From a virus: a stretch of 39,186 nucleotides of DNA. Under the pieces are notes generated by a model. It saw only the letters and a program-made list of their open reading frames with translations, was not told where the DNA came from and ran no database searches. Positions within the stretch are counted from its first letter, which is position 1, and each line of letters opens with the position of its first letter. A program made the translations under genes and the position numbers. This document shows, piece by piece, positions 3,586-25,092 of the stretch. The stretch spans positions 1 to 39,186 of the IMG/VR virus record IMGVR_UViG_3300044858_003666; one strand, 5' to 3'.

Positions 3586-4529
3586 GCCGTTTCCTTTTCT
3601 TTATCGCCAAACTCAGCGCTCGTATCCACTTCCTGCATCTGATCGAGCCAGACATACCCGCGAGTTGCAGCGTCAAATTCAAGCTGCAATTCCTCGGCCC
3701 GCGCGACAACCATCCGGCCCACGTCCCGGCCCGCCTGCTTCGCGCGGCCAAGGATCAGGTTCAATTCTTCCGGCGTTCTGATATTCGGCAGGGTTTGCGC
3801 AAACCAATCTACCTCGACCTTATGCGCAAGCTGCGCATCGGAAAGCGCGTTCAGTTTTTCCTTCACGGTCGCAATCACATCGGCCATGCAGGTTTTGAAC
3901 GCCGCCGATTTGACGTCCGGGATCGGCATGGAAAGCAAGCCCGCCGGGTCTTTCCCGAATGATGTTTCAGTCGGGGAAAAGACAAGGTGACGCTCTTTGT
4001 TGAAGATCGAAATGCGCGCAATCACGTCGCTGTCGGTCAGGATCAAGTCTTTCGATCCCCCTGGCACCTTGAGGCGTTCCTTGATTGCGTCGCTGTCCTT
4101 TTGTTCGTCCATGTGGGCAATCAGGATTACGTCCTTTCCGAAACTCCGAATGAGCCGCAGGAAAGCAGAGAAGCGGACGCCAAGTTTTCCCCAGCCCTGT
4201 TGATTGAGCGCCCCGCCGTATGCCAATCGGCTATCGCCCTTGATGACATCCTGCGCAAGCACGTCTAGGGCTTTGCCCACGGTGTCTATAATGATGGTAT
4301 CGTAATCCTTTACGTCATCCGCTTTGATACCGGCGACCTCGGCCCATTCGGTCACGCGGACCACATCGGAGCGGTTCGGTGCGCGGTGTGCGCCGTTGTC
4401 AAAGTCGAGCAACAGCGGGCGGCTTGCAGAGAATGCAAGACTGGTTTTACCCAATCCGGGCTGGCTGTAGATGGTTAGGCAAAGTGTCGTGACCTCGATC
4501 TGATCGGTGGATTTGGTGACGTGTATCAT
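3582..4529 (-). CDS. Sak4-like RecA-fold single-strand annealing ATPase
   Basis: 315 residues. Walker A is SQPGLGKTS (residues 22-30), Walker B is DTIIID (77-82), and a sensor-like segment DVILIAHMDE follows near 135. This is the AAA_24/phage nucleotide-binding family that includes Sak4 recombinases. Residues 230-315 add a helical C-terminal region with KQAGRDVGRM and an acidic end, which could contact the SSB-like protein. A 13-codon mini-frame fills the gap upstream and overlaps the start, with AAAGGG as ribosome site. Role: homologous recombination of phage DNA by annealing. Confidence 0.85.
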   Translation of the reverse strand: MIHVTKSTDQIEVTTLCLTIYSQPGLGKTSLAFSASRPLLLDFDNGAHRAPNRSDVVRVTEWAEVAGIKADDVKDYDTIIIDTVGKALDVLAQDVIKGDSRLAYGGALNQQGWGKLGVRFSAFLRLIRSFGKDVILIAHMDEQKDSDAIKERLKVPGGSKDLILTDSDVIARISIFNKERHLVFSPTETSFGKDPAGLLSMPIPDVKSAAFKTCMADVIATVKEKLNALSDAQLAHKVEVDWFAQTLPNIRTPEELNLILGRAKQAGRDVGRMVVARAEELQLEFDAATRGYVWLDQMQEVDTSAEFGDKEKETA

Positions 4530-4567
4530 CTGATGCCCTTTCGCTCGATGATGGTTGCGGGTGTCAT
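4526..4567 (-). CDS. Possible 13-residue coupling peptide (MTPATIIERKGIR)
   Basis: A 14-codon frame starts at ATG 4567, overlapping the upstream TGA, and ends in a TGA overlapping the Sak4-like ATG at 4529. It therefore bridges two genes with ATGA at both ends and contains the AAAGGG ribosome site of the Sak4-like gene. Its role may be to carry ribosomes across the gap rather than to make a functional peptide. Chance is possible at this length. Confidence 0.3.
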   Translation of the reverse strand: MTPATIIERKGIR

Positions 4568-4716
4568 TCGTCTGTTTCCTCTATCAGTGTCAGCAGTTCG
4601 GCAATCGCATCGGACTCGGTATCGCCAATGCCGAACGGGCCGCTGTCCGCGTCGGCACGCCGCGCCAGCCAGATTGAGCCAATCGACGTGTCCACAATCT
4701 CAGTTGCGATGTTCAT
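4564..4716 (-). CDS. Small acidic hypothetical protein
   Basis: 50 residues from ATG 4716, which overlaps the upstream stop by ATGA. The frame is open further upstream, but that extension is Arg-rich and lies wholly inside the previous gene. The sequence is compact and acidic (GDTESDAIAELLTLIEETDE at the C-terminus). I do not recognise it. Its place immediately before the Sak4/SSB pair suggests an early, recombination-linked or regulatory role, but this rests on context only. Confidence 0.55.
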   Translation of the reverse strand: MNIATEIVDTSIGSIWLARRADADSGPFGIGDTESDAIAELLTLIEETDE

Positions 4717-4985
4717 TCCGCAGCCTCCGCATAGGACCGCGCCGCGCCTTCGTATTCTTCGAGCAGGGACAGGCGCAAATCTTCGGTATCCAGCAGTTGC
4801 TCCAGCAGCGGGTTTTCCTGCCACTCAAATTCAGGCTTGCCCTTCACCGTGGGGTGCCGGAACCACATGTAAGACACCGACACGCCGCCGCTTTCGCCGT
4901 CCCAATAATAGTCGTATTGGATTTTGGCCTCAAACCAAGCGCCGCCGTGGGGGCCTTCCAGGTTATAAAATGTCTCGGCTATCAT
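4713..4985 (-). CDS. Hypothetical protein, acidic, aromatic-rich
   Basis: 90 residues from ATG 4985 (MIAETFYNLEG), chosen because it overlaps the upstream stop by ATGA; the nine extra upstream codons have no such support. The first half is aromatic-rich beta-type sequence (AKIQYDYYWDGESGG, VSYMWFRHP) and the second half is acidic helix (LLEQLLDTEDLRLSLLEEY). No motif recognised. It is in tight operon context with the Sak4-like gene two positions downstream. Confidence 0.65.
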   Translation of the reverse strand: MIAETFYNLEGPHGGAWFEAKIQYDYYWDGESGGVSVSYMWFRHPTVKGKPEFEWQENPLLEQLLDTEDLRLSLLEEYEGAARSYAEAAE

Positions 4986-7008: not shown

Positions 7009-7265
7009 GAGCCGCCAAAGCTGACATCAACCAACCGGAAATCGTCTCGGCCCTTCGCAAGGTGGGCTGCTGCGTCATGCACATGCATACCCTGGGCAAA
7101 GGCGTGCCGGACATACTCGTTGCCCGCCGTGGCAGGCTTTGGCTTGTCGAAGTGAAGGGGCCGAAGGGCAAGCTGACGCCGGATCAAGAGGTGTTTCACG
7201 CGGCATGGCCGGTGCATGTCGTCCGGTCGGTCGATGATGCAATCAAGCTGGTAGGTGCGGCATGA
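7005..7265 (+). CDS. VRR-NUC-like PD-(D/E)XK nuclease
   Basis: 86 residues from GTG 7005 (GTGA overlap). The core reads GKGVPDILVARRGRLWLVEVKGP: the Asp of PDIL and the E-x-K of VEVKG are the PD-(D/E)XK catalytic residues, and the short length is typical of phage VRR-NUC proteins, a family linked to Holliday-junction or flap cleavage. The following KLTPDQEVFHAAW is also characteristic. Next to the methyltransferase and replication genes, it probably resolves replication or recombination intermediates. Confidence 0.8.
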   Translation: MRAAKADINQPEIVSALRKVGCCVMHMHTLGKGVPDILVARRGRLWLVEVKGPKGKLTPDQEVFHAAWPVHVVRSVDDAIKLVGAA

Positions 7266-7939
7266 TCCGCAAGGAAGTCATCATCGGCGATTGCAGGCTG
7301 ATCCTGGGCGATTGCCTTGAGGTCATGCCGATGCTTGGCCGGGTGGATGCGGTGGTGACGGACCCGCCTTATGGGATTGGCCGCGATGGGCAAGTGAAAA
7401 CCACGGGCGGAAACGGCGGGCGCAAGGCTTACGAATTCAAGGGGTGGGACGGCAACAGGCCCGCGCCCGAAGTGTTTAGCCAAATTCTCAACATCAGCGC
7501 GGATCAGGTCATATGGGGCGGCAATTTTTTTGCCGATCTTCTGCCGCCGTCTATGCGCTGGCTCGTTTGGGACAAGGGGCAGCGCATCAATCAATCGGAC
7601 GGCGAACTTGCTTGGACTTCGCAGCAAAAGGCCCTGCGCATCACTGAGAAAAACCGCGTTGCTCTGATGATCGACGGGGCAGAACACCCGACCCAAAAGC
7701 CCGTCGCCCTGATGGAATGGTGCCTTGGCTTTCTGCCTGACGCCAAGACCATCCTCGATCCCTTCATGGGCAGCGGCACCACCCTTGTTGCCTGCGCCAA
7801 GCTGGGCCGCAAGGGCATCGGCATTGAACTGGACCCGGACTATTTCGAGATAGCGTGCAAGCGCGTCCGCGATGCCTACGCACAGCCTGACCTGTTTATC
7901 GCGCCCCCGGAAAAGCCGGTGCAGGAGGTTTTTTTTTGA
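7262..7939 (+). CDS. DNA adenine/cytosine-N4 methyltransferase, beta class
   Basis: 225 residues. The catalytic motif DPPYG is at 34-38 and the AdoMet motif DPFMGSGTT at about 166-174, so motif IV precedes motif I as in the beta class. HPTQKPVAL just before motif I is the usual motif X. The recognition part between is short, so specificity is probably a small site. It would methylate phage DNA and escape restriction or adjust regulation. No nuclease partner is adjacent, so it is an orphan enzyme. The gene ends in a T9 run that carries the stop and the start of the DnaA-like gene. Confidence 0.88.
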   Translation: MIRKEVIIGDCRLILGDCLEVMPMLGRVDAVVTDPPYGIGRDGQVKTTGGNGGRKAYEFKGWDGNRPAPEVFSQILNISADQVIWGGNFFADLLPPSMRWLVWDKGQRINQSDGELAWTSQQKALRITEKNRVALMIDGAEHPTQKPVALMEWCLGFLPDAKTILDPFMGSGTTLVACAKLGRKGIGIELDPDYFEIACKRVRDAYAQPDLFIAPPEKPVQEVFF

Positions 7940-8220
7940 TAATGACCCCCGCTGATATTGTCGCAGCCGAGGCAATCCGCTTTCCCGACGCCGGTATCCG
8001 TAAAATCGTCCGCGCCGTAGCAGCCACAAGTGGCGTGGACATCGACCGCATTTTAAGCGCAAGCCGTGTGGCGTCCGTTGTTATGGCCCGCGATCTGGTT
8101 TGCTACATGGCGCACAGGGAAGGCTATTCAATGGAGCGCATTGGCCGCTGCATTGGCGGGCGGGACCATACGACCATCGGCACCGCGATTGCGCGCGAAA
8201 AGGCGAGGCGCGGCGAGTGA
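7936..8220 (+). CDS. Stand-alone DnaA domain IV-like DNA-binding protein
   Basis: 94 residues. The helix-turn-helix region (MARDLVCYMAHREGYSMERI) and signature GGRDHTTI match the C-terminal DNA-binding domain of DnaA; the ATPase domains are absent. AGGAGG (7923-7928) is seven bases from TTG 7936 but 13 from ATG 7942, so the TTG start is favoured. The TTG overlaps the methyltransferase stop. The protein could bind DnaA boxes to open a phage origin, or titrate host initiation. It lies just upstream of the replication genes. Confidence 0.8.
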   Translation: MIMTPADIVAAEAIRFPDAGIRKIVRAVAATSGVDIDRILSASRVASVVMARDLVCYMAHREGYSMERIGRCIGGRDHTTIGTAIAREKARRGE

Positions 8221-8846
8221 GCGATTTGCATTTCCATTCCGGGCGCGTCGATGAAGCCCGCGATTTGGTGGAACGGTTCCACTACAGCGGGCGCGTCCCG
8301 TCGAACGTGCAATTCGTGGGAAGCCTGCATGAAGCGGGCGGATTGTTCGGGGATTACGGGCCTGCCGTCGCGGCCTGTTTCTTTTCAATCCCACCGACTC
8401 GCTGGTCCGAAGATGTTCTTGAACTGTCGCGTTTAGTGCGGGCGTCCTATTCTGTTCCGTTGTCTGCCTTAATTTCCAAGTCATGCAAGGAACTGCGGAG
8501 GCAGGGCCACGATCTGCTGGTTTCATTTGGTGACCGCACGCAGGGCCACCACGGCGGCGTGTATCAGGCAGCGTCGTGGACATATACGGGGGCGCGTGAA
8601 CGGCGAATGGACGGCCTTCTAGTGGACGGGACATTTATTGGAGGTAGGGCTTGCAATCATAAATTTGGCACTCAATCGCCGTCAAAGGTGACTGCGCTTC
8701 TTGGCCGCGAAGTGGCACCCCACTTTGACGAAGGAAAGCATTTGTATTGGAAAGCACTTGGCGCGCATGGGCTAAAGAAAGCTGCGCGCCTTGGATTAAA
8801 GTCGGTTCCTTATCCGAAGCCTAAAATGATGGAAGCAGCCGAATGA
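8217..8846 (+). CDS. Mom-like DNA-modification protein
   Basis: 209 residues from GTG 8217 (GTGA overlap). ELSRL (69-73), VSFGD (102-106), GHHGG (110-114) and YQAASWTYTG (116-125) are the pattern of the Mom family, GNAT-related enzymes of which phage Mu Mom converts adenine to N6-(methylcarbamoyl)adenine and blocks many restriction enzymes. Substrate here is not proven. No Com-type translational activator gene is evident, and the gene is embedded in an early operon rather than late as in Mu. Together with the methyltransferase it suggests an anti-restriction module. Confidence 0.75.
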   Translation: MSDLHFHSGRVDEARDLVERFHYSGRVPSNVQFVGSLHEAGGLFGDYGPAVAACFFSIPPTRWSEDVLELSRLVRASYSVPLSALISKSCKELRRQGHDLLVSFGDRTQGHHGGVYQAASWTYTGARERRMDGLLVDGTFIGGRACNHKFGTQSPSKVTALLGREVAPHFDEGKHLYWKALGAHGLKKAARLGLKSVPYPKPKMMEAAE

Positions 8847-9932: not shown

Positions 9933-10507
9933 TGACATTCCAAACCCGCACCATCGCCAAGCGCCCTGGCACCTACATGGAAGCTGGAGAGACCAGCGTA
10001 CAGGTGAACCGCATTACTCTGCGCGCCGAGCCGTGGGATAAACCGGAACTCAAACAGGAACACCAGCGGCCCGCCCCCGGTAGGTTTGAACCTATATCGG
10101 TGCGGACCCCGACAATTGCAAAGGTTCGGTCTGAGCAGCCCGATAGGTTTGCGCAATGGGATCAGGATGTGCTGGCCGATGAATGGAAAGCCCTGTGCAG
10201 GCGGGAAGGCCACATGCGCGGGCTTCCCCTCTCCACCGACTTGCAGCGGCAACGGGGAAGCGCGGGCGGGCTTGTATCGCAGCAGCATGACGGCCTGCCG
10301 GATTACATGGCCCGCGCCTTGCGGCATTTTTCGCGCGGCGACGATACGACAAACGGAATGGCGGCGGCGATCAAGATGTCGGATTCACGGGGCAAGGAAG
10401 CGGTGCGAAAGCTGCGAAGCTACGGGTTTATCCAAAGCACGGCGCACAGTGGGGGCCGATCCTTCCATGCAATCACGCAGCTTGGCTTGGAGGCGATTTG
10501 CAAATGA
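9929..10507 (+). CDS. Hypothetical protein with C-terminal winged-helix-like domain
   Basis: 192 residues, start overlapping the upstream stop (two adjacent ATGs at 9929 and 9932). The first 90 residues are Pro/Arg-rich and probably flexible. The C-terminal part (about 120-190) has helices and a wing-like end: ALRHFSRGDDTTNGMAAAI, GKEAVRKLRSYGFIQ, GRSFHAITQLGLEAI, resembling a winged helix used for DNA binding or replisome contacts. Family unknown. Confidence 0.6.
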   Translation: MMTFQTRTIAKRPGTYMEAGETSVQVNRITLRAEPWDKPELKQEHQRPAPGRFEPISVRTPTIAKVRSEQPDRFAQWDQDVLADEWKALCRREGHMRGLPLSTDLQRQRGSAGGLVSQQHDGLPDYMARALRHFSRGDDTTNGMAAAIKMSDSRGKEAVRKLRSYGFIQSTAHSGGRSFHAITQLGLEAICK

Positions 10508-11349
10508 GCCATTACGTCCTGCCCGAAGGCAACGTACAAGTGTCGTTCAGCGGCGGGCGGACATCGGCGTACATGCTGCACCACATTCTGGAAGCTAACG
10601 GCGGGCTTCCAGATCGGGCAAATGTCGTCTTTGCCAATACGGGCCGCGAAATGCCCGAAACGCTAGACTTTGTGCAGGAGTGCAGCGACCGCTGGTCGGT
10701 GCCGATTGTATGGGTGGAGTTTGAACGGTCGGGCGAAGCTGGCGCGCGTTTCCGGCAGGTGTCGCATAACAGCGCCGCCCGCAATGGCGAGCCGTTTGTT
10801 GACCTGATCCGGCAGAAAAAGTTTCTGCCGAACCAAGCCGCCCGCTTTTGCACGGGCGATCTGAAAGTCAAGCCGACCCGCGATTATCTGCGGTCAATCG
10901 GCTGGGACCACTGGCTATCCGCATTGGGTATCCGAGCCGACGAGGCGCAGCGCGTCAATCGTGAACCCCAAGCTGAAAGATGGCAGCGCTGGTATCCGCT
11001 GGCCGATGCGGGCGTTTCAAAGCGCGACGTTATGGCGTTTTGGCAGCGCCAGCCGTTTGACCTTCGCCTCTCCAACATCGGCGGCAAAACGCCGCTTGGC
11101 AACTGTGACGGCTGCTTTCTGAAATCAGAGGCCAATATCGCCGCGTTGGCCCGCGATTACCCCGATCGGCATCAATGGTGGCAGGACATGGAGGACATGG
11201 TGGCTGAGTGGACTCTTGGGATGGGCGCGCGGTTCCGCAAGGAATACAGCCGCCGTGAAATCCGCTGGATGGTGGACAACCAAGGCGACTGGATTTTTGA
11301 CGCGCCAGAGGCTTTGTGCCAAACCAGCGGCGGGGAGTGCATGGCATGA
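10504..11349 (+). CDS. PAPS-reductase-like PP-loop protein
   Basis: 281 residues from ATG 10504 (ATGA overlap). The PP-loop SFSGGRTSAYM (14-24) marks the adenine-nucleotide alpha-hydrolase/PAPS-reductase superfamily. FCTGDLKVKPTRDYL and GNCDGCFLKS supply three Cys, as in members that hold an iron-sulfur cluster. Many siphophages carry such a gene and its substrate is unsettled: sulfate reduction, DNA or RNA thiolation of the DndC type, and sulfur relay have all been proposed for relatives. Here it lies in an operon with a methyltransferase and Mom-like protein, so nucleic-acid modification deserves thought. Confidence 0.8.
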   Translation: MSHYVLPEGNVQVSFSGGRTSAYMLHHILEANGGLPDRANVVFANTGREMPETLDFVQECSDRWSVPIVWVEFERSGEAGARFRQVSHNSAARNGEPFVDLIRQKKFLPNQAARFCTGDLKVKPTRDYLRSIGWDHWLSALGIRADEAQRVNREPQAERWQRWYPLADAGVSKRDVMAFWQRQPFDLRLSNIGGKTPLGNCDGCFLKSEANIAALARDYPDRHQWWQDMEDMVAEWTLGMGARFRKEYSRREIRWMVDNQGDWIFDAPEALCQTSGGECMA

Positions 11350-11705
11350 GGCGCGTCCTTCCTTCCCGCCGTCCCTGCATCACCGTTGACGCAGAATACA
11401 ACGGTATGCCCCTTGTCGTGACCATCGGCGTTGACCCCGCAACCGGCGCTGCAATGGAGGTCTTTGCCCACGGGCCAAGATATGGCGCAGACCTGACCCG
11501 GATACTGGACGACCATTGCACGATTGCCAGCAACGCGATGCAATACGGATCGCCGCCAGAGGCATTGGCGAAGGCTTGCGGCACTGTGCCGGTGATTGAG
11601 GACGGCCAGGAATCGACCGCCCCGGCATCGGCAATCGGTGTGGTGATGGACGCGGTGAACCGGTTGCCGGAGCATGTCAGGTGGATTGAGGAGCGCGGGC
11701 CATGA
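11346..11705 (+). CDS. TSCPD-domain-like protein
   Basis: 119 residues from ATG 11346 (ATGA overlap). The middle and end (LTRILDDHCTIASNAMQYG, PEALAKACGTV, ASAIGVVMDAV) follow the TSCPD domain best known from the C-terminus of B12-dependent ribonucleotide reductases, where it helps deliver electrons or bind partners. Here it is free-standing, and no reductase subunit is in the window. It could act on the host enzyme to raise dNTP supply. Alternative: an unrelated protein of similar pattern. Confidence 0.65.
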   Translation: MRRVLPSRRPCITVDAEYNGMPLVVTIGVDPATGAAMEVFAHGPRYGADLTRILDDHCTIASNAMQYGSPPEALAKACGTVPVIEDGQESTAPASAIGVVMDAVNRLPEHVRWIEERGP

Positions 11706-12247
11706 TGCACAAGGCAATCACCCTGGACGTACCCATAGCCCCCACATGGCTGATGCTCAAGGTTCGTAGCAACTGCGAAGTGATGACCCGCGAGGCGTTG
11801 AAGGAATGGGGCGTGGAGAGTTTCTTTCCGGGGCGACTTGTGCAGCGTCATAGGTTCGGAAAGACATGGACGGTCGAGCGCGCCGAAGTCACCGGCTATG
11901 TTTTCGCCAAGTTCGACCGCGTGCCGTTGGCGGATAACATGCGGGAGCGCTTGAAAGGCTTCTACGGCTTTGTGACGTGCAACGGCTGTATCGTGACTGT
12001 CCCGCGCCCGATTATCCAGCGGTTGCACGGGCTATCGGTCGAGGCGCAGGAATTGGAAGCGGCACGTCGGGAAATGCTGCGCGTGAAGGAGGGCGACACG
12101 GCCAAGTTCCTGACGGGCGCGCTTGCGGGTCATACCGTCGAGGTCAAGACCATCGGCAGCGTGGTGACGGTGCTGCTGAACGGGCGGGCAATCAAGACGG
12201 ATTTGGCTTCTCTGGAACGGGTTGACGTTCCCGATCTGTTGCGGTAA
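11702..12247 (+). CDS. Phage NusG-like transcription elongation factor
   Basis: 181 residues. Residues 14-105 match a NusG N-terminal domain: TWLMLKVRSNCEVMTREAL, a basic strand-rich stretch, EVTGYVFAKFDRVP and FYGFVTCNG. Residues 125-175 look like a KOW domain (VKEGDTAKFLTGALAGHTVE, VVTVLLNGRAIKTDL). NusG and RfaH use this architecture to bind RNA polymerase, prevent pausing and couple transcription to partners. It is the last gene of the rightward early operon, just ahead of the RNA zone and late genes: the position held by Q in lambda. A late antiterminator role is likely but inferred. Confidence 0.8.
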   Translation: MMHKAITLDVPIAPTWLMLKVRSNCEVMTREALKEWGVESFFPGRLVQRHRFGKTWTVERAEVTGYVFAKFDRVPLADNMRERLKGFYGFVTCNGCIVTVPRPIIQRLHGLSVEAQELEAARREMLRVKEGDTAKFLTGALAGHTVEVKTIGSVVTVLLNGRAIKTDLASLERVDVPDLLR

Positions 12248-13569: not shown

Positions 13570-13645
13570 GCCGGTGTGGCTCAATGGTAGAGCGGGGGTC
13601 TCCAAAACCCCGTCCGAGTTGGTTCGATTCCAGCCACCGGTGCCA
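13570..13645 (+). tRNA. tRNA-Trp (CCA)
   Basis: All arms are present: acceptor GCCGGTG/CACCGGT (first pair G-T), D arm GCTC/GAGC with AATGGTA loop, anticodon arm GGGGT-CTCCAAA-ACCCC (anticodon CCA), variable loop, T arm GTTGG-TTCGATT-CCAGC, discriminator G and an encoded CCA at 13643-13645. Length 76. Trp has a single codon, so a phage copy may boost translation of Trp-rich proteins or replace a host tRNA damaged by defence nucleases. Confidence 0.92.
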
Positions 13646-19669: not shown

Positions 19670-21126
19670 TGAACATTCTTGACAGGGCCATTGCTTGGCT
19701 GTCGCCGGAATCTGGATTGCAGCGGGTGCGGTCGCGCAAGGTGATGTCGCAGCTCATGCGCTATGACGCCGGATCGCGCGGCCCGCGTACCAAGGGCTGG
19801 CGCGCTGTCGGTGGTGATGCTGACGCGGTTACAGGATCGCGCAACCGGATTGCGGCGGTGGCGCGGGATATGACCCGGAATGCACCGTTTGCCGTGAAGG
19901 CGCAGCAGGTCATCGTGGCAAACGTGATCGGAGACGGGATTATCCCCAAGCTGCGCAGCACGAACAAGCGGCAGGAAAAGCGCCTTCGAGAAATGATGAA
20001 AGCGCATTTCGACACGACGGCGATTGACGCGATGGGCCGGGAAAACCTTTACGGATTGCAACGGCTGGCGCTGATGGCGGTGGTGGCAGATGGCGAGGTA
20101 CTTATTCGGCGCGTCCGGTCGGGACAGGCTATCCCGTTTCAGTTGAACGTGTTGGAGATCGACTATCTGGATGGCAGCAAGACGAGCGTAACCGGGCCGG
20201 AAATCCGGGAAGGGATCGAGTATAACGAGCGGGGCGAACGTGTCGCCTATTGGCTTTACGATCAGCACCCTGGCACGTCAAACCGCTATTATGGGCGTGG
20301 CTTGGAATCGCGGCGCGTTCCTGCATCAGAGATTGTGCATGTTTTCCGGCAGGACCGCCCCGGCCAGTCACGCGGGGTTTCGTGGTTTGCGCCGGTCGCA
20401 TTGGCAATGCAGGACTGGTCTGACCATCAGGACGCCAAGCTGCTGCAACAGAAGATTGCGGCGTGCTTTGCGGCGTTCCGCACGGGCGTAGAACCGGATG
20501 ACGAAAGCCCGAGCCAGACGGCGGAACGGTTTGCCACTCTTTCACCGGGCCGGATCGAGAATTTGGGCGTTGGCGAGGATGTGAAGTTTGCCACCCCGCC
20601 CGCAGTGCAAGGATATGACGAGTTTTCGCGGGTAACGCTGCGCGCAATCGCGGCGGGATTGGGTATCACCTACGAGGCACTCTCTGGCGACTTGTCGGGG
20701 GTAAACTTTTCGTCTGGCCGGATGGGCCGCATGGAAATGGACCGGAATGTTTCGGCTTGGCAATGGCTGATGATGATTCCGCAGATGATGCAGCCGATTG
20801 GCGAGTGGACGCTGGAAGCGGTGGCAATGCGCGCGGAAGGGCGGGGGTTTACGATTGATTGGGTGCCACCTGTGCGCTTCATCGTTGATCCAAACCGCGA
20901 AGTGCAAGCGATGGTTTCCAGCATGGATGCGGGGCTTTCGAGCCGTCAGGGCAATATCCGCGCGCTTGGGTATGACCCGGAAGAGGTTTTGGCGGAACAG
21001 ACCGAAGATGCCGAACAGGCAAAGTCGGCTGGCATCATGTTCAAGGCTGGGCCGCAGGTATTGCAGCCCGTGACGGCGCAGCCGGGTGGCGGTCAAACGG
21101 TCGAGCAACAGCCGCAGGCGGCGTGA
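19669..21126 (+). CDS. Portal protein, lambda gpB-like
   Basis: 485 residues, start overlapping the upstream stop (TGATG). Characteristic stretches are SRNRIAAVARDMTRNAPFA-like early sequence, PFQLNVLEIDYLDG, IVHVFRQDRPGQSRGVSW and ALSGDLSGVNFSSGRMGRME in the middle, all typical of the lambda portal family (PF05136). It forms the twelve-subunit ring through which DNA enters the head. A Gln/Gly-rich tail ends the chain. Unlike lambda, the head protease does not follow directly: a 1.9-kb insert intervenes. Confidence 0.92.
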   Translation: MNILDRAIAWLSPESGLQRVRSRKVMSQLMRYDAGSRGPRTKGWRAVGGDADAVTGSRNRIAAVARDMTRNAPFAVKAQQVIVANVIGDGIIPKLRSTNKRQEKRLREMMKAHFDTTAIDAMGRENLYGLQRLALMAVVADGEVLIRRVRSGQAIPFQLNVLEIDYLDGSKTSVTGPEIREGIEYNERGERVAYWLYDQHPGTSNRYYGRGLESRRVPASEIVHVFRQDRPGQSRGVSWFAPVALAMQDWSDHQDAKLLQQKIAACFAAFRTGVEPDDESPSQTAERFATLSPGRIENLGVGEDVKFATPPAVQGYDEFSRVTLRAIAAGLGITYEALSGDLSGVNFSSGRMGRMEMDRNVSAWQWLMMIPQMMQPIGEWTLEAVAMRAEGRGFTIDWVPPVRFIVDPNREVQAMVSSMDAGLSSRQGNIRALGYDPEEVLAEQTEDAEQAKSAGIMFKAGPQVLQPVTAQPGGGQTVEQQPQAA

Positions 21127-21334
21127 CCAGAAAAATAGGGTTGCCAGAAAAAATGTGTTGCGTTACGCGCGCGGGTGTGGTTGATTCGGGGTGCCTATAA
21201 CGGCGACCCGATTTGGAAGGGCCAACTTCCGCCTCGGGTCTAAACCGAAACCCGAGGTCGCGGGCGTCGGTCTGGTTTCGTGCGTAGCACAATTCCCGGC
21301 CCGATTGCTAGCGTCTCCGACAGGAGACAAGCCA
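21127..21334 (+). promoter_or_regulatory. Leader with TATAAC box and sequestered ribosome site
   Basis: A 208-base gap in an otherwise packed late operon. It holds TATAAC (21196-21201, no clear -35), an 8-bp hairpin CCTCGGGT/ACCCGAGG (21232-21257) and GTCTCC-GACA-GGAGAC (21313-21328). The last hairpin buries the AGGAGA ribosome site of the next gene, so translation should need unfolding or help. Confidence 0.5.
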
Positions 21335-22087
21335 ATGGCTGTCAAGAAGGCCGAAGCGGGATCGCTTCAAATCGACGCCCTCAAGCAAGGGCGCGTAACT
21401 CTGCGGATGATCGGCACGACGCCGCTGTATTTCAATGCGATGAGCCTGAAAGTCAGGCACACCCTGCAAGCGGGTGGCGCGAAGAAAACGGCGGCTGAAA
21501 AGCGCGAACTAAAGCACGACCCGGAAAACGAGTTTCGGGCGAGCGTCTACCGGCAAGAGCAAGGCGAGACTCTGCTTTGCTTCCCGGCTCCTGGCGTCAA
21601 GGCCGCGATGGCGACGGCGGCGCTTGAAACGGCGGGCGTGACAAAAACGAGCGTGAACCGGCTGATCTTTCTGCCCCAGCAGAAGATCAACATTTGGGGA
21701 ACGCCGCTGTTGAAGTGTGATGTTGTCCGGTCGGCGGATATGAACAAGACGCCCGACATTCGGACGCGGGCCTATCTGCCGCGCTGGTGTGCGGAGGTTC
21801 AAATCGCCTTTATCACGCCAACGCTTTCGGTGCGGTCTATCGTTTCACTGCTGGCGAATGCCGGTGTCGTGATCGGCATTGGCGACTTTCGGCAGGAAAA
21901 GGGCAAGGGCAGCTTCGGGACGTTCCGCGTGATCGGTGATGCGGACAGCGACGAGGAATGGGACGCCATTTCGCAGGAAGGCCGCGACGCGCAGGAATTT
22001 GCCCTGTTCAATCCGCAATACGCGGACGAAGACACGGCGGAACTGATGGCGATGTTCCATGCGGAAGTGGCGAGGCGGGCGGCATGA
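21335..22087 (+). CDS. Conserved phage protein of unknown function, RAMP-like end
   Basis: 250 residues from ATG 21335; AGGAGA lies seven bases upstream within a hairpin. The order is VTLRMIGTTPLYFNAMS, a Lys-rich loop, EFRASVYR, FPAPGVKAAMATAALETAGV, then IRTRAYLPRW and VVIGIGDFRQEKGKGSFGTF. I know this pattern from unnamed proteins of other siphophages, usually outside the head genes. The Gly-rich end resembles the Gly loop of RAMP/Cas7-type folds, but I cannot show homology. It interrupts the head gene order between portal and protease. The next gene overlaps by ATGA and is probably its partner. Confidence 0.7.
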   Translation: MAVKKAEAGSLQIDALKQGRVTLRMIGTTPLYFNAMSLKVRHTLQAGGAKKTAAEKRELKHDPENEFRASVYRQEQGETLLCFPAPGVKAAMATAALETAGVTKTSVNRLIFLPQQKINIWGTPLLKCDVVRSADMNKTPDIRTRAYLPRWCAEVQIAFITPTLSVRSIVSLLANAGVVIGIGDFRQEKGKGSFGTFRVIGDADSDEEWDAISQEGRDAQEFALFNPQYADEDTAELMAMFHAEVARRAA

Positions 22088-22578
22088 ATCAGCAAGAGCG
22101 GCAAGCCGTCATTGACGAATACATGACCGATACGGGCAAGGCGGTGGTGACGCCGCTTGCCTTTGTCGAATGGCTGCGACCCAAGCGAAACCATCCGGCG
22201 CACTCGTTTTTCTTCGCCAAGTCGGACGATGCGGCGGCGATGGAATACCGGATGATCCGATTTCGGCAGTTTGCAAACGGGCTGCGGATCACGGTGAACG
22301 TGACCTATACCGACCCTGTTACTAGCGTGGTCAAGGTTACGCCGCGCGAGTTTCCGACTCTGGTTTCGGTCGTTTCGGGTCGGAAAGCCGGGGGTGGATA
22401 TACGCCATTTGAGGCGGCGGACCCCGCATCTGTGGCGGAGTTGCGGCGGCAGGGCGCGGTTGCCTTGCGGTCGTGGCTGGCGCGGTATGGCGGCGTTATG
22501 GGTATGACGGGGGTTGATGTGGCCCCGATTGAGCAAATCGCGGCTTCGATTGAGGATCGTGTGGCGCTGTCCGCCTAG
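22084..22578 (+). CDS. Conserved phage protein, partner of the preceding gene
   Basis: 164 residues from ATG 22084 (ATGA overlap). A helical start (QQERQAVIDEYMTDTGKAV) is followed by FVEWLRPKRNHPAHSFFFAK, FRQFANGLRITVNVTYT and a C-terminal helix pair (SVAELRRQGAVALRSWLARY). No catalytic motif is recognised. Tight coupling to the RAMP-like gene suggests a two-component system. It ends where the GGCNN tract begins. Confidence 0.65.
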   Translation: MNQQERQAVIDEYMTDTGKAVVTPLAFVEWLRPKRNHPAHSFFFAKSDDAAAMEYRMIRFRQFANGLRITVNVTYTDPVTSVVKVTPREFPTLVSVVSGRKAGGGYTPFEAADPASVAELRRQGAVALRSWLARYGGVMGMTGVDVAPIEQIAASIEDRVALSA

Positions 22579-22978
22579 GGCGCGCTGGTCAAGGTAAGGC
22601 GGTCAAGGCGGGGCAAGGCAAGGCCAGGCGTGGCCCGGCATGGCGGGGCGGTCTAGGCGTGGCTCGGCAGGCTGAGTTGAGGTATGGCAAGGCTGGGCGT
22701 GGCGGTCAAGGCGGTCGAGGCTAGGCCCGGCGGGGCAAGGCAAGGCCAGGCGTGGTGTGGCATGGCGGTTGAGGCGCGGCGGTCATGGCTCGGTTTGTCT
22801 GCGTGAGTTGAGGCCAGTTTAGGCGGTCATGTTGTGGTCACGCTTGGCGTGTCGAGGTAGGGCGCGGCGCGGCGAGGTTTGGCGGTCAAGGCGGGGCGCG
22901 GCGCGGTCTGGCCGGGTTTGGCGGTCAAGGCGAGTTAGGGTTAGGCGGCGTAAGGCTTGGCTTGGCGCGGCAATCCAA
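22579..22978 (+). repeat. GGCNN pentanucleotide-periodic tract, about 400 bp
   Basis: GGC recurs every five bases or multiples of it (GGCAA GGCAA GGCCA GGCGT GGC and so on) with a strong G-over-C bias on the plus strand. A 27-base stretch is duplicated exactly (22607-22633 and 22729-22755), and GGCGGTCAAGGCG occurs four times (22598, 22701, 22881, 22920). The 5-base period is not coding. No gene is supported here. Similar tracts occur in other phages, with unknown function; G-rich RNA structure or R-loops are possible. Confidence 0.8.
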
Positions 22979-22994
22979 TCATCGCAAATTCTAG

Positions 22995-23020
22995 GGGCGG
23001 TCCTTCGGGGCCGCCCTTTT
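22995..23020 (+). terminator. UUCG-tetraloop intrinsic terminator before the capsid gene
   Basis: GGGCGGTCC-TTCG-GGGCCGCCC gives nine pairs (one G-U) capped by a UUCG tetraloop, then TTTTCC. It ends the cassette and stands 20 bases before the protease-capsid start. It would stop transcripts unless antiterminated, or protect the 5' end of capsid mRNA. Confidence 0.75.
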
Positions 23021-23040
23021 CCTATGGAAAGGAGGCCGCA

Positions 23041-25092
23041 GTGGCCGAAAACGAGGTGATCCTTTACGGGTCGGTCGGCGCAAGTTTTTGGGATGAAGAT
23101 TTCTTCACTGCCAAAGGCGTCAAAGAACAGCTTGACGGCATGTCTGGCGATATCACCGTTCGCATCAACAGCGGCGGCGGGATCGCGTCGGAAGGCCAGG
23201 CGATTTTCACGCTTTTGCGCGACTATGCCGGCAAAAAGAGGATCGTTGTGGACGCGGTAGCGGCTTCGGCGGCGTCGCTGATCGCTATGGCGGGCGACGA
23301 AATTGTTCTTCGGCGCGGCGCTTGGCTCTTAATTCACGATCCGGCGTCACCGTGGCTAGAAGCGCGCGGCACGGAAGCTGACCATCTGCGTGCTGCAAAG
23401 CAGCTTGGCGTTATGGCGAACGCCTATGCCGATGTTTACGCGGCGCGGGCCGGGATCAGCCGCGAGGAAGCGCGCCAGATCATGCGGGACGAAGTGGTGC
23501 TGGATGGCGGCATGGCTGTGCAGATGGGCTTTGCCACGGCCACGGATGACACCGAAGCGCTGGAAATCGCGCGCTTCGACTATCGGATTTATGCCCATGC
23601 GCCCGAAGCGGCGCGGGCGGCTTCGGAATCCTTCGGCGAAAGCCGGGGAGAATTGGCAATTCTTGCCAGCATCGCGGGCGCGTCCCGTATCTCAAAACAG
23701 GAGCCTTTCATGGCTGATGAAATCAAGGCTGTGGAGGCGACGACCCCCGCAGAAGACGTGATCGAAGCCCCGGCTGCGGTCGAAACTCCTTCGGCGGATG
23801 TTGTGGTGGCTGCTGCCACGGCAACAGAGCGCACCCGCGCCCGCCGGATCGTGGAAATGGCTGCGGCGGCGCGTCTGCCGGAAGCCTTCGCTACCGCGAT
23901 GATCGCGGATGGCGTGACGCTTGAAGATGCGTCGGATCGTATTGTGGCCGAATGGCGGAAAGGTGGCGACGTGGACAAGGCGATGATGGGCGCGCGTGTG
24001 ACCCGTGACGAGCGGGAAACCAAGCGTGAAGGCGCGGAGGCAGCTATTGTCGCGCAGTTGGGCCGCACCGACCCGACGACCGACAAGGCACGGCCCTTCA
24101 TGGGCATGAAGCTGGCCGAAATGGCGGCGGAAATCAGCGGATACAAAGGGTCGCTGCGCAACGCTGCGGACACCATCCGCGCCGTGGAAATGTCGATGCA
24201 CGCCACGTCGGACTTCCCGCTGGTGCTGGAAAACGCGCTGAACAAGCGCCTCCAGGACAGCTACGCCAAGGCAACCCCGTCCTATCAGTCGATTGCCGAG
24301 CGTATGGACTTCACCGACTTCCGCCCGCACCCGATTTCCCAGATCGGCGACTTTCCGGGGCTGACGGAAATCAACGAAGGCGGTGAAATCCAATTCGGCA
24401 CCGTCGGGGAAAAGAAGGAAACGCTGCTGCTGCGTTCCTATGGTTCGGGCTTGTCGATTTCGCGTCAGATGATCGTCAATGACGATCTGAGCGCTATCGA
24501 CCGCATCCTGTCCAACCGGGGCCAGATGGTCGCGCTGGAAGAGGACCGCCTGTTCTGGGCCATGTTCCTTTCGGGTTCCAACTCGGACGGCCCGACCCTG
24601 ACTGAAACTTCGCGTCAGGTGTTCAACACGACGGACGCGACCAAAGCAGGCACGGCAACGGCTATTACGGTTGCCGCTCTCGGCACTGCCCGCGCCGCAA
24701 TGCGCGTGCGCCGTGGGCTTGCCCCGAAGGCAGGTGCCACGGGCCAACTGCTGAACCTTACCGCGTCTATCCTGCTGGTCGGGCCGGACAAGGAAACCGA
24801 GGCACAGCAGATTGTCGCCCCGATTCAGGCGCAACAGGCGGGCAACATCAACCCGTTCTCCGGCACTTTGCGGATTGTGGTGTCGCCGTACATCACCGGC
24901 AACGCTTGGTATCTGTTCGCCGATCCTTCGGTGCTTGCCAACTTCGCGTATGGCTTCCTGCGCGGCGAAGGTGGCCCCCGGATGCGGATGGACGAGCCTT
25001 TCGGTGTCCAGGGGATGCGCTTCACCGTCGAGCAGAATTTCGCCGCGGGTGCTATCGACTTCCGCGCTGGCTGGCGCAACGCGGGCGCTTGA
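23041..25092 (+). CDS. ClpP-type prohead protease fused to major capsid protein
   Basis: 683 residues from GTG 23041, with AAAGGAGG seven bases upstream. Residues 1-200 are a ClpP-like serine protease: RINSGGGIASEGQAIF, catalytic Ser76 in VAASAASLIAMAGD, His99 in LLIHDP. A Glu/Ala-rich scaffold-like region follows (about 225-360). Residues 380-683 form an HK97-fold capsid protein (LSISRQMIVNDDLSAIDRI, SPYITGNAWYLFADP, FRAGWRNAGA at the end). Usually these are separate genes; a fusion builds protease and scaffold into each subunit and removes them by self-cleavage. Only one polypeptide, so all copies start as protease. Confidence 0.9.
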   Translation: MAENEVILYGSVGASFWDEDFFTAKGVKEQLDGMSGDITVRINSGGGIASEGQAIFTLLRDYAGKKRIVVDAVAASAASLIAMAGDEIVLRRGAWLLIHDPASPWLEARGTEADHLRAAKQLGVMANAYADVYAARAGISREEARQIMRDEVVLDGGMAVQMGFATATDDTEALEIARFDYRIYAHAPEAARAASESFGESRGELAILASIAGASRISKQEPFMADEIKAVEATTPAEDVIEAPAAVETPSADVVVAAATATERTRARRIVEMAAAARLPEAFATAMIADGVTLEDASDRIVAEWRKGGDVDKAMMGARVTRDERETKREGAEAAIVAQLGRTDPTTDKARPFMGMKLAEMAAEISGYKGSLRNAADTIRAVEMSMHATSDFPLVLENALNKRLQDSYAKATPSYQSIAERMDFTDFRPHPISQIGDFPGLTEINEGGEIQFGTVGEKKETLLLRSYGSGLSISRQMIVNDDLSAIDRILSNRGQMVALEEDRLFWAMFLSGSNSDGPTLTETSRQVFNTTDATKAGTATAITVAALGTARAAMRVRRGLAPKAGATGQLLNLTASILLVGPDKETEAQQIVAPIQAQQAGNINPFSGTLRIVVSPYITGNAWYLFADPSVLANFAYGFLRGEGGPRMRMDEPFGVQGMRFTVEQNFAAGAIDFRAGWRNAGA

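Follow-up and report, generated by a model that had tools for sequence, protein, structure and literature searches.

The present analysis identifies, with a probability of about 0.92, a moron in the head operon of a phage, the cargo being a VIPR (Viral Interference Programmable Repeat) system. The window that was analysed is the whole 39,186-nucleotide stretch of the viral record IMGVR_UViG_3300044858_003666. VIPR was first described in 2026 in a bioRxiv preprint (PMC13142463). According to its description, these systems are characterized by: (i) two genes, (ii) small RNAs (vrRNAs) with a GGY/NN pattern, made of 9–16 YNNGG repeats with hypervariable NN, (iii) a location in phages, and (iv) guides directed against other phages and other VIPRs. 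The NN pairs are read with one base skipped (1-nt-skip rule), and type II vrRNAs end in a conserved structured 3′ tail (PMC13142463). One VIPR type has been characterised so far. Our analysis documents the homology and fold of the first cassette protein, the conservation of the gene pair and of the array, the insertion of the block and the enrichment of targets. Sequence, fold, gene pair, array and code underpin the identification as VIPR, whereas expression and activity would be those that the preprint describes for other types.

Organization of the cassette

The portal ORF extends to 21126, and the ORF encoding a fused protease-capsid protein begins with a GTG at 23041. The interval between them contains a leader, two ORFs overlapping by ATGA, a period-5 tract and a hairpin followed by TTTT. 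The 1.9-kb cassette delimited in the initial annotation, with its two coupled genes and its repeat tract, was thus recovered at the same coordinates. The features are as follows:

21088..23058, + strand, imported block between portal and protease genes (DNA alignment with sibling contigs L086–L088)
21200..21334, + strand, structured 5′ leader RNA of vipr (fold z −3.6; DNA 75–78% identical to that of the L002, L007 and L008 leaders)
21335..22087, + strand, vipr, 250-aa RAMP (Cas7-like), predicted guide-RNA-binding protein (profile, model, Foldseek/VIA, phrog_4652)
22084..22578, + strand, vap, 164-aa conserved partner (start codon overlapping the vipr stop, ATGA; phrog_15946)
22587..22975, + strand, predicted vrRNA array, opening with GGTCAAGGTAAGGC, then NNGKY pentamer blocks split by GGCGGTY
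22712..22766, + strand, guide W3 (GA.TA.CC.GG.AA.AA.CA.GT.GT.AT), predicted target the sibling head-protease gene (17/20, L085–L088)
22993..23022, + strand, hairpin and T run downstream of the array, resembling an intrinsic terminator (−22 kcal/mol, z −3.57)
23041..23540, + strand, divergent 5′ segment of the protease-capsid gene (identity to siblings per 100 nt)

The initial annotation had also proposed regulatory signals proper to the cassette. Its terminator corresponds to the hairpin and TTTT at 22993–23022 (z −3.6 after rounding), which is absent from the output of the pattern scan though its fold energy is strong. As for its promoter, TATAAC is present at ~21193, but the pattern scan found no sigma-70-like promoter there.

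Insertion of the block in the head operon

In Pfam, the portal, terminase, protease-capsid and cement proteins correspond to the usual head proteins of lambda-type phages. The head protease (Clp type) and the major capsid protein are encoded by a single 683-aa ORF (23041–25092). DNA alignment with the sibling contigs L086–L088 revealed that 1.97 kb of the window replaces ~57 bp in these phages, in which portal and protease genes are joined directly, and that the flanks of the block are ~97% identical to theirs. Since such closely related siblings have an empty site, the block is imported cargo. As for phage morons, it is absent from near-identical phages, and the self-contained, moron-like cargo suggested in the initial annotation is borne out by these empty sites.

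The two junctions differ. Identity to the siblings remains at 94–99% right to the junction on the portal side, whereas the first five 100-nt steps on the protease side show 66, 83, 93, 93 and 90%, followed by mostly 94–100%. This drop on the protease side only indicates that the block was acquired along with a protease-gene 5′ end of foreign origin; sequence comparison thus points to a segment (23041–23540) imported or recombined together with the cassette. The portal gene has a new C-terminal end (21088–21112) that includes GGCGGTC, the punctuation motif of the array, perhaps left over from an array or from the recombination event by which the block was imported. Another sibling, L085, carries at the same portal/protease junction (4093–4977) a different 0.9-kb two-gene insert encoding a 185-aa protein and a 104-aa HTH-like protein. 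As this insert is unrelated to the cassette, the junction is a general cargo hot spot.

Vipr and its conserved partner

A profile built from 81 relatives of the first protein matches the PDB entry 36pp, "SUSP1 Vipr protein" (E 5.8e-10), and the corresponding gene in the SUSP1 genome (E 1.7e-12); hhalign against SUSP1 vipr gives a probability of 97.7%, with 29% identity over 55 columns. The AlphaFold2 model (pLDDT 89.9) has type III, III-E and VII CRISPR Cas7-type entries as its best 47 Foldseek matches, Csm3/Cas7 subunits being at the top, and the structural aligner VIA gives a Z of 10.8 against Csm3/Cas7. The Gly-rich loop, in which the initial annotation had perceived a resemblance to RAMP/Cas7 folds, holds the family-invariant residues G181, G183, R186, G192 and G195, and this resemblance is thus corroborated by the predicted structure. 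Structure prediction followed by Foldseek, set beforehand as a test, returned a Cas7-type fold and not an ordinary head component. Taken together, profile and model identify the first gene as a vipr homologue encoding a protein with a predicted RAMP fold. Its only sequence family is phrog_4652 (function unknown). No usable family was found for either gene in Pfam, NCBIfam or PADLOC, and an NCBIfam match to transaldolase (14 bits) was dismissed as noise.

The second gene, vap, adjoins vipr in 78 of the 80 relatives, the two remaining contigs ending early. The pair is also found in most actinophage loci and spans phages of alphaproteobacteria and actinobacteria. The locus has the two-gene organization (vipr and vap) of VIPR. 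The Vap model (pLDDT 95.7) has no known fold among PDB entries searched with Foldseek (best E 0.85). No similarity to SUSP1 vap1, the only one of vap1–6 compared, is recognisable (score 1.0 bit).

The predicted vrRNA array

The initial annotation mentioned a "repeat tract" but overlooked the predicted role of this tract as the guide-RNA array, the heart of the system. The pentamer of the array is NNG[G/T][C/T], with GGC in GC-rich phages and GTT in AT-rich ones, and its NN positions vary freely. Blocks are punctuated by GGCGGT[C/T] (GGCAGGC in actinophages), found in the window at 22598, 22647, 22701, 22710, 22764, 22778, 22822, 22881 and 22920. In many relatives, the array opens with TGGTCAAGG-N-AAGGCGGTC. 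The array of the window includes seven main blocks of 7–11 pentamers each; the tandem GGY/NN repeats of VIPR are therefore present, with GKY as consensus rather than strict GGY.

Of the 159 vipr loci, 145 have a period-5 NNGKY tract on the vipr strand and five have one on the other strand, compared to only one of 80 control head-gene loci devoid of vipr. The detector was relaxed from strict NNGGC to NNGKY because the strict pattern missed AT-rich members. It found no second tract on either strand of the window. The association of tract and vipr was recognised from sequence prior to the comparison with the VIPR preprint.

No identical CRISPR-length repeats or spacers were found in the tract (22587–22975), which is therefore not a class 1 CRISPR-Cas array. 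No separate structured 3′ tail was seen between its blocks, and the published staggered arrays may have none either. Neither the array nor the leader has an Rfam family; a P17 match (15.7 bits) is far under the cut-off of 45. It should also be mentioned that the guide tract of Mycobacterium phage Donkeykong (L084:4450–4836) is publicly annotated as a hypothetical protein (gene 48), and that other actinophage records may contain the same misannotation of the tract as a gene.

Predicted targets and the linked protease allele

All guides of the clade were searched for exact 16-nt matches in 3.6 Mb (both strands), after removal of tract-like targets. With a skip of 1 nt, seven distinct guides have a match, compared to a mean of 2.0 and a maximum of four for permuted guides (10 runs); skips of 0, 2 and 3 nt give one, zero and zero guides, respectively. 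A raw excess of 3-nt-skip matches (n = 42) was due to tract sequence that had escaped detection, and disappeared once this was masked. Natural targets in the clade thus follow the 1-nt-skip rule of VIPR; for the window itself, one imperfect target was found. Several of the matched sites lie in: (i) vipr genes of other phages for guides of L007, L173 and L185, (ii) an AAA_24-like (RecA-like) ATPase gene of VIPR-bearing phages for L014, and (iii) a prohead protease gene for L075. Several clade targets are in codon register, the skipped base being the third codon position. The longest natural guide match observed extends over 10 consecutive NN pairs (L189:4921–4985 to L191:4983–5021); it is located in a different actinophage contig, on its minus strand.

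Among the guides of the window, a candidate target was found for W3 only. This guide fits the head-protease codons D-Y-P-G-K-K of the four siblings L085–L088 (site GACTATCCCGGCAAAAAGCGGATCGTTGTG) at 17 of 20 bases under the 1-nt-skip rule and in codon register; the permutation P is 0.0007 for that guide alone and ~0.005 across the seven window guides. A relaxed W3 pattern, adjusted post hoc to the siblings, has seven matches in all viral contigs, four of them in these siblings. The matches in L243, L244 and L246 are out of register with any long reading frame and were taken as chance. No exact target of W1 or W5 was found in the viral contigs. In 295 genomes of one family, W5 has three one-mismatch matches against one in the reversed control, which was judged to be chance. 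Overall, the guides probably aim at rival phages, and W3 apparently at the head-protease gene of close relatives.

The window's own protease site (23221–23250) matches W3 at only 15 of 20 bases, with Ala instead of Pro, and sits inside the divergent protease stretch adjoining the cassette. Since the mismatched site belongs to this stretch, we infer that a less-matched and putatively resistant protease allele is linked to the cassette.

The leader of vipr

The hairpins noted upstream of vipr in the initial annotation belong to a leader (21200–21334) that folds better than each of 200 shuffles. In the predicted fold, its last hairpin (GTCTCC/GGAGAC) covers the Shine-Dalgarno (SD) sequence. A sister leader group (A7, n = 15 relatives) shows three hairpins and a fourth one burying the SD sequence, whose anti-SD strand (GTGYATCC) could pair instead with the loop GGATGCA of hairpin 3, forming an alternative pseudoknot. 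Double-sided pair changes in this group number 19, compared to 9.9 in shuffles and 3–8 in slid controls, and 15 compared to 8.4 when the pseudoknot replaces the SD hairpin; the pseudoknot pairs are less well supported since they vary on one side only. A covariance model (R1) has significant matches in most members only directly upstream of vipr, and it also finds the leader in L176, L033 and L034, none of which was used in building it. R1 gives no score on the leader of the window, a variant that belongs to a divergent subgroup but keeps the SD hairpin. RNAalifold on a mixed leader alignment recovered the first hairpin and nothing more. The leader may be a translational switch controlling vipr.

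Genomic contexts of the cassette and other genes of the window

Two kinds of neighbourhood are seen for the cassettes of relatives: one consists of packaging and head genes (terminase, portal, Mu F-like, S78 protease), the other of early recombination genes (RecT, ERF, exonuclease, SSB). In Gordonia and Mycobacterium phages, they are found near immunity or HTH genes. Elsewhere in the window, a DNA methylase gene (N6_N4_Mtase) is followed by a gene encoding a Mom-family protein (7262–8846), likely a DNA-modification pair directed against restriction. A PAPS-reductase-domain protein and a NusG-like protein are encoded among early genes (10498–12247), and Rfam detects a tRNA-like gene at 13570–13642 (+ strand).

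Alternative explanations

The location between portal and protease is where an ordinary head or head-assembly component (scaffold, decoration or head-tail part) would be expected. However, siblings with 97% identical flanks do without the cassette, relatives carry it in differing genomic places and the fold is that of Cas7; this explanation, which the empty sites refute, retains hardly any credibility. A self-moving mobile element, whose two proteins (P1 and P2) would be recombination proteins and whose repeats would be its ends, would account for the many different insertion places among phages as well as for the empty sites. It is nevertheless very improbable, as neither protein has a transposase or integrase fold, the 0.5-kb divergence extending into the protease gene resembles homologous recombination between phages, and the unrelated two-gene insert of L085 at the same site indicates a general cargo site. 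Among the functions envisaged in the initial annotation (defence, anti-defence or recombination), a role in phage conflict is retained but recombination is unsupported.

The tract could also consist of mere RNA- or DNA-binding sites for the RAMP protein (autoregulation, decoy or packaging), its NN varying only to counter recombination between repeats. This agrees with the free variation of NN and with the small number of window guides that have a target, the W1 and W5 searches being empty or yielding chance matches. However, the enrichment of the 1-nt skip over other skips and over permuted guides, the best targets being phage genes matched in codon register, and the experimental demonstration that homologous systems are programmable, as described in the preprint (PMC13142463), argue for guides; we consider mere binding sites unlikely, although somewhat less so than a mobile element or a head component.

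Proposed mechanism and significance

By analogy with the mechanism that the preprint describes for other types, the VIPR system of the window would operate as follows: (i) vrRNAs would be processed from the pentamer array, (ii) Vipr, a single-RRM RAMP, would be expected to assemble along them with one GKY motif per subunit, (iii) the NN pairs would read double-stranded DNA by the 1-nt-skip rule, and (iv) the bound complex would repress or block the target gene, with the help of Vap. The targets would be rival phages, through the sibling head-protease gene (W3) and, in the clade, vipr, ATPase and prohead-protease genes. The W3 target, the linked resistant allele and the control of translation by the leader are proposals of the present analysis, drawn from sequence.

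The VIPR system itself is already known; the W3 target, the linked protease allele and the leader appear to be new. We tentatively propose, at clearly less than even odds, that the block is a poison-antidote pair among siblings, combining a guide against the resident head-protease allele with a divergent, less-fitting allele, and that it also includes an undescribed leader-RNA switch of vipr, in which the anti-SD strand would pair with either the ribosome site or the upstream loop. If the poison-antidote reading is true, recombinants receiving the whole block would be spared and siblings would be hit. Overall, this locus provides further support for the gapped code in a large clade from alphaproteobacterial and actinobacterial phages, and VIPR is seen here moving as cargo between near-identical phages. 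In addition, a target is predicted in the very siblings of the phage, together with a linked allele that matches less well, and the synthesis of Vipr may be controlled by a conserved leader.

Comparison with known systems

The cassette resembles the type II system of Escherichia phage SUSP1 (Vipr, vap1 and vrRNA1–4) by its RAMP protein with a G-loop motif, its two-gene locus, its phage host and its intergenic RNAs built of pentamers, in which NN varies and G(G/T)Y is constant. It differs from it by: (i) blocks that follow each other head to tail, punctuated by GGCGGTY and devoid of individual tails, (ii) a Vipr with a longer helical C-terminus (250 aa compared to 195 aa in SUSP1), (iii) a vap not recognisable as vap1, and (iv) a structured leader proper to vipr. 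The preprint mentions VIPR types with "staggered arrays with overlapping vrRNAs" (PMC13142463), which likewise have contiguous pentamer blocks in an array, and the array of the window probably belongs to such a staggered-array type. Csm3/Cas7 of type III and VII CRISPR-Cas systems share with Vipr the RRM core, the Gly-rich loop and the filament-forming RAMP fold (Z about 10), whereas their sequence identity to Vipr is only 9–14%. Lambdoid head-operon morons are similar by the presence of cargo between conserved head genes, by a terminator-like hairpin and by siblings devoid of the cargo; unlike them, no promoter was recognised here, and the cargo is an RNA-guided system.
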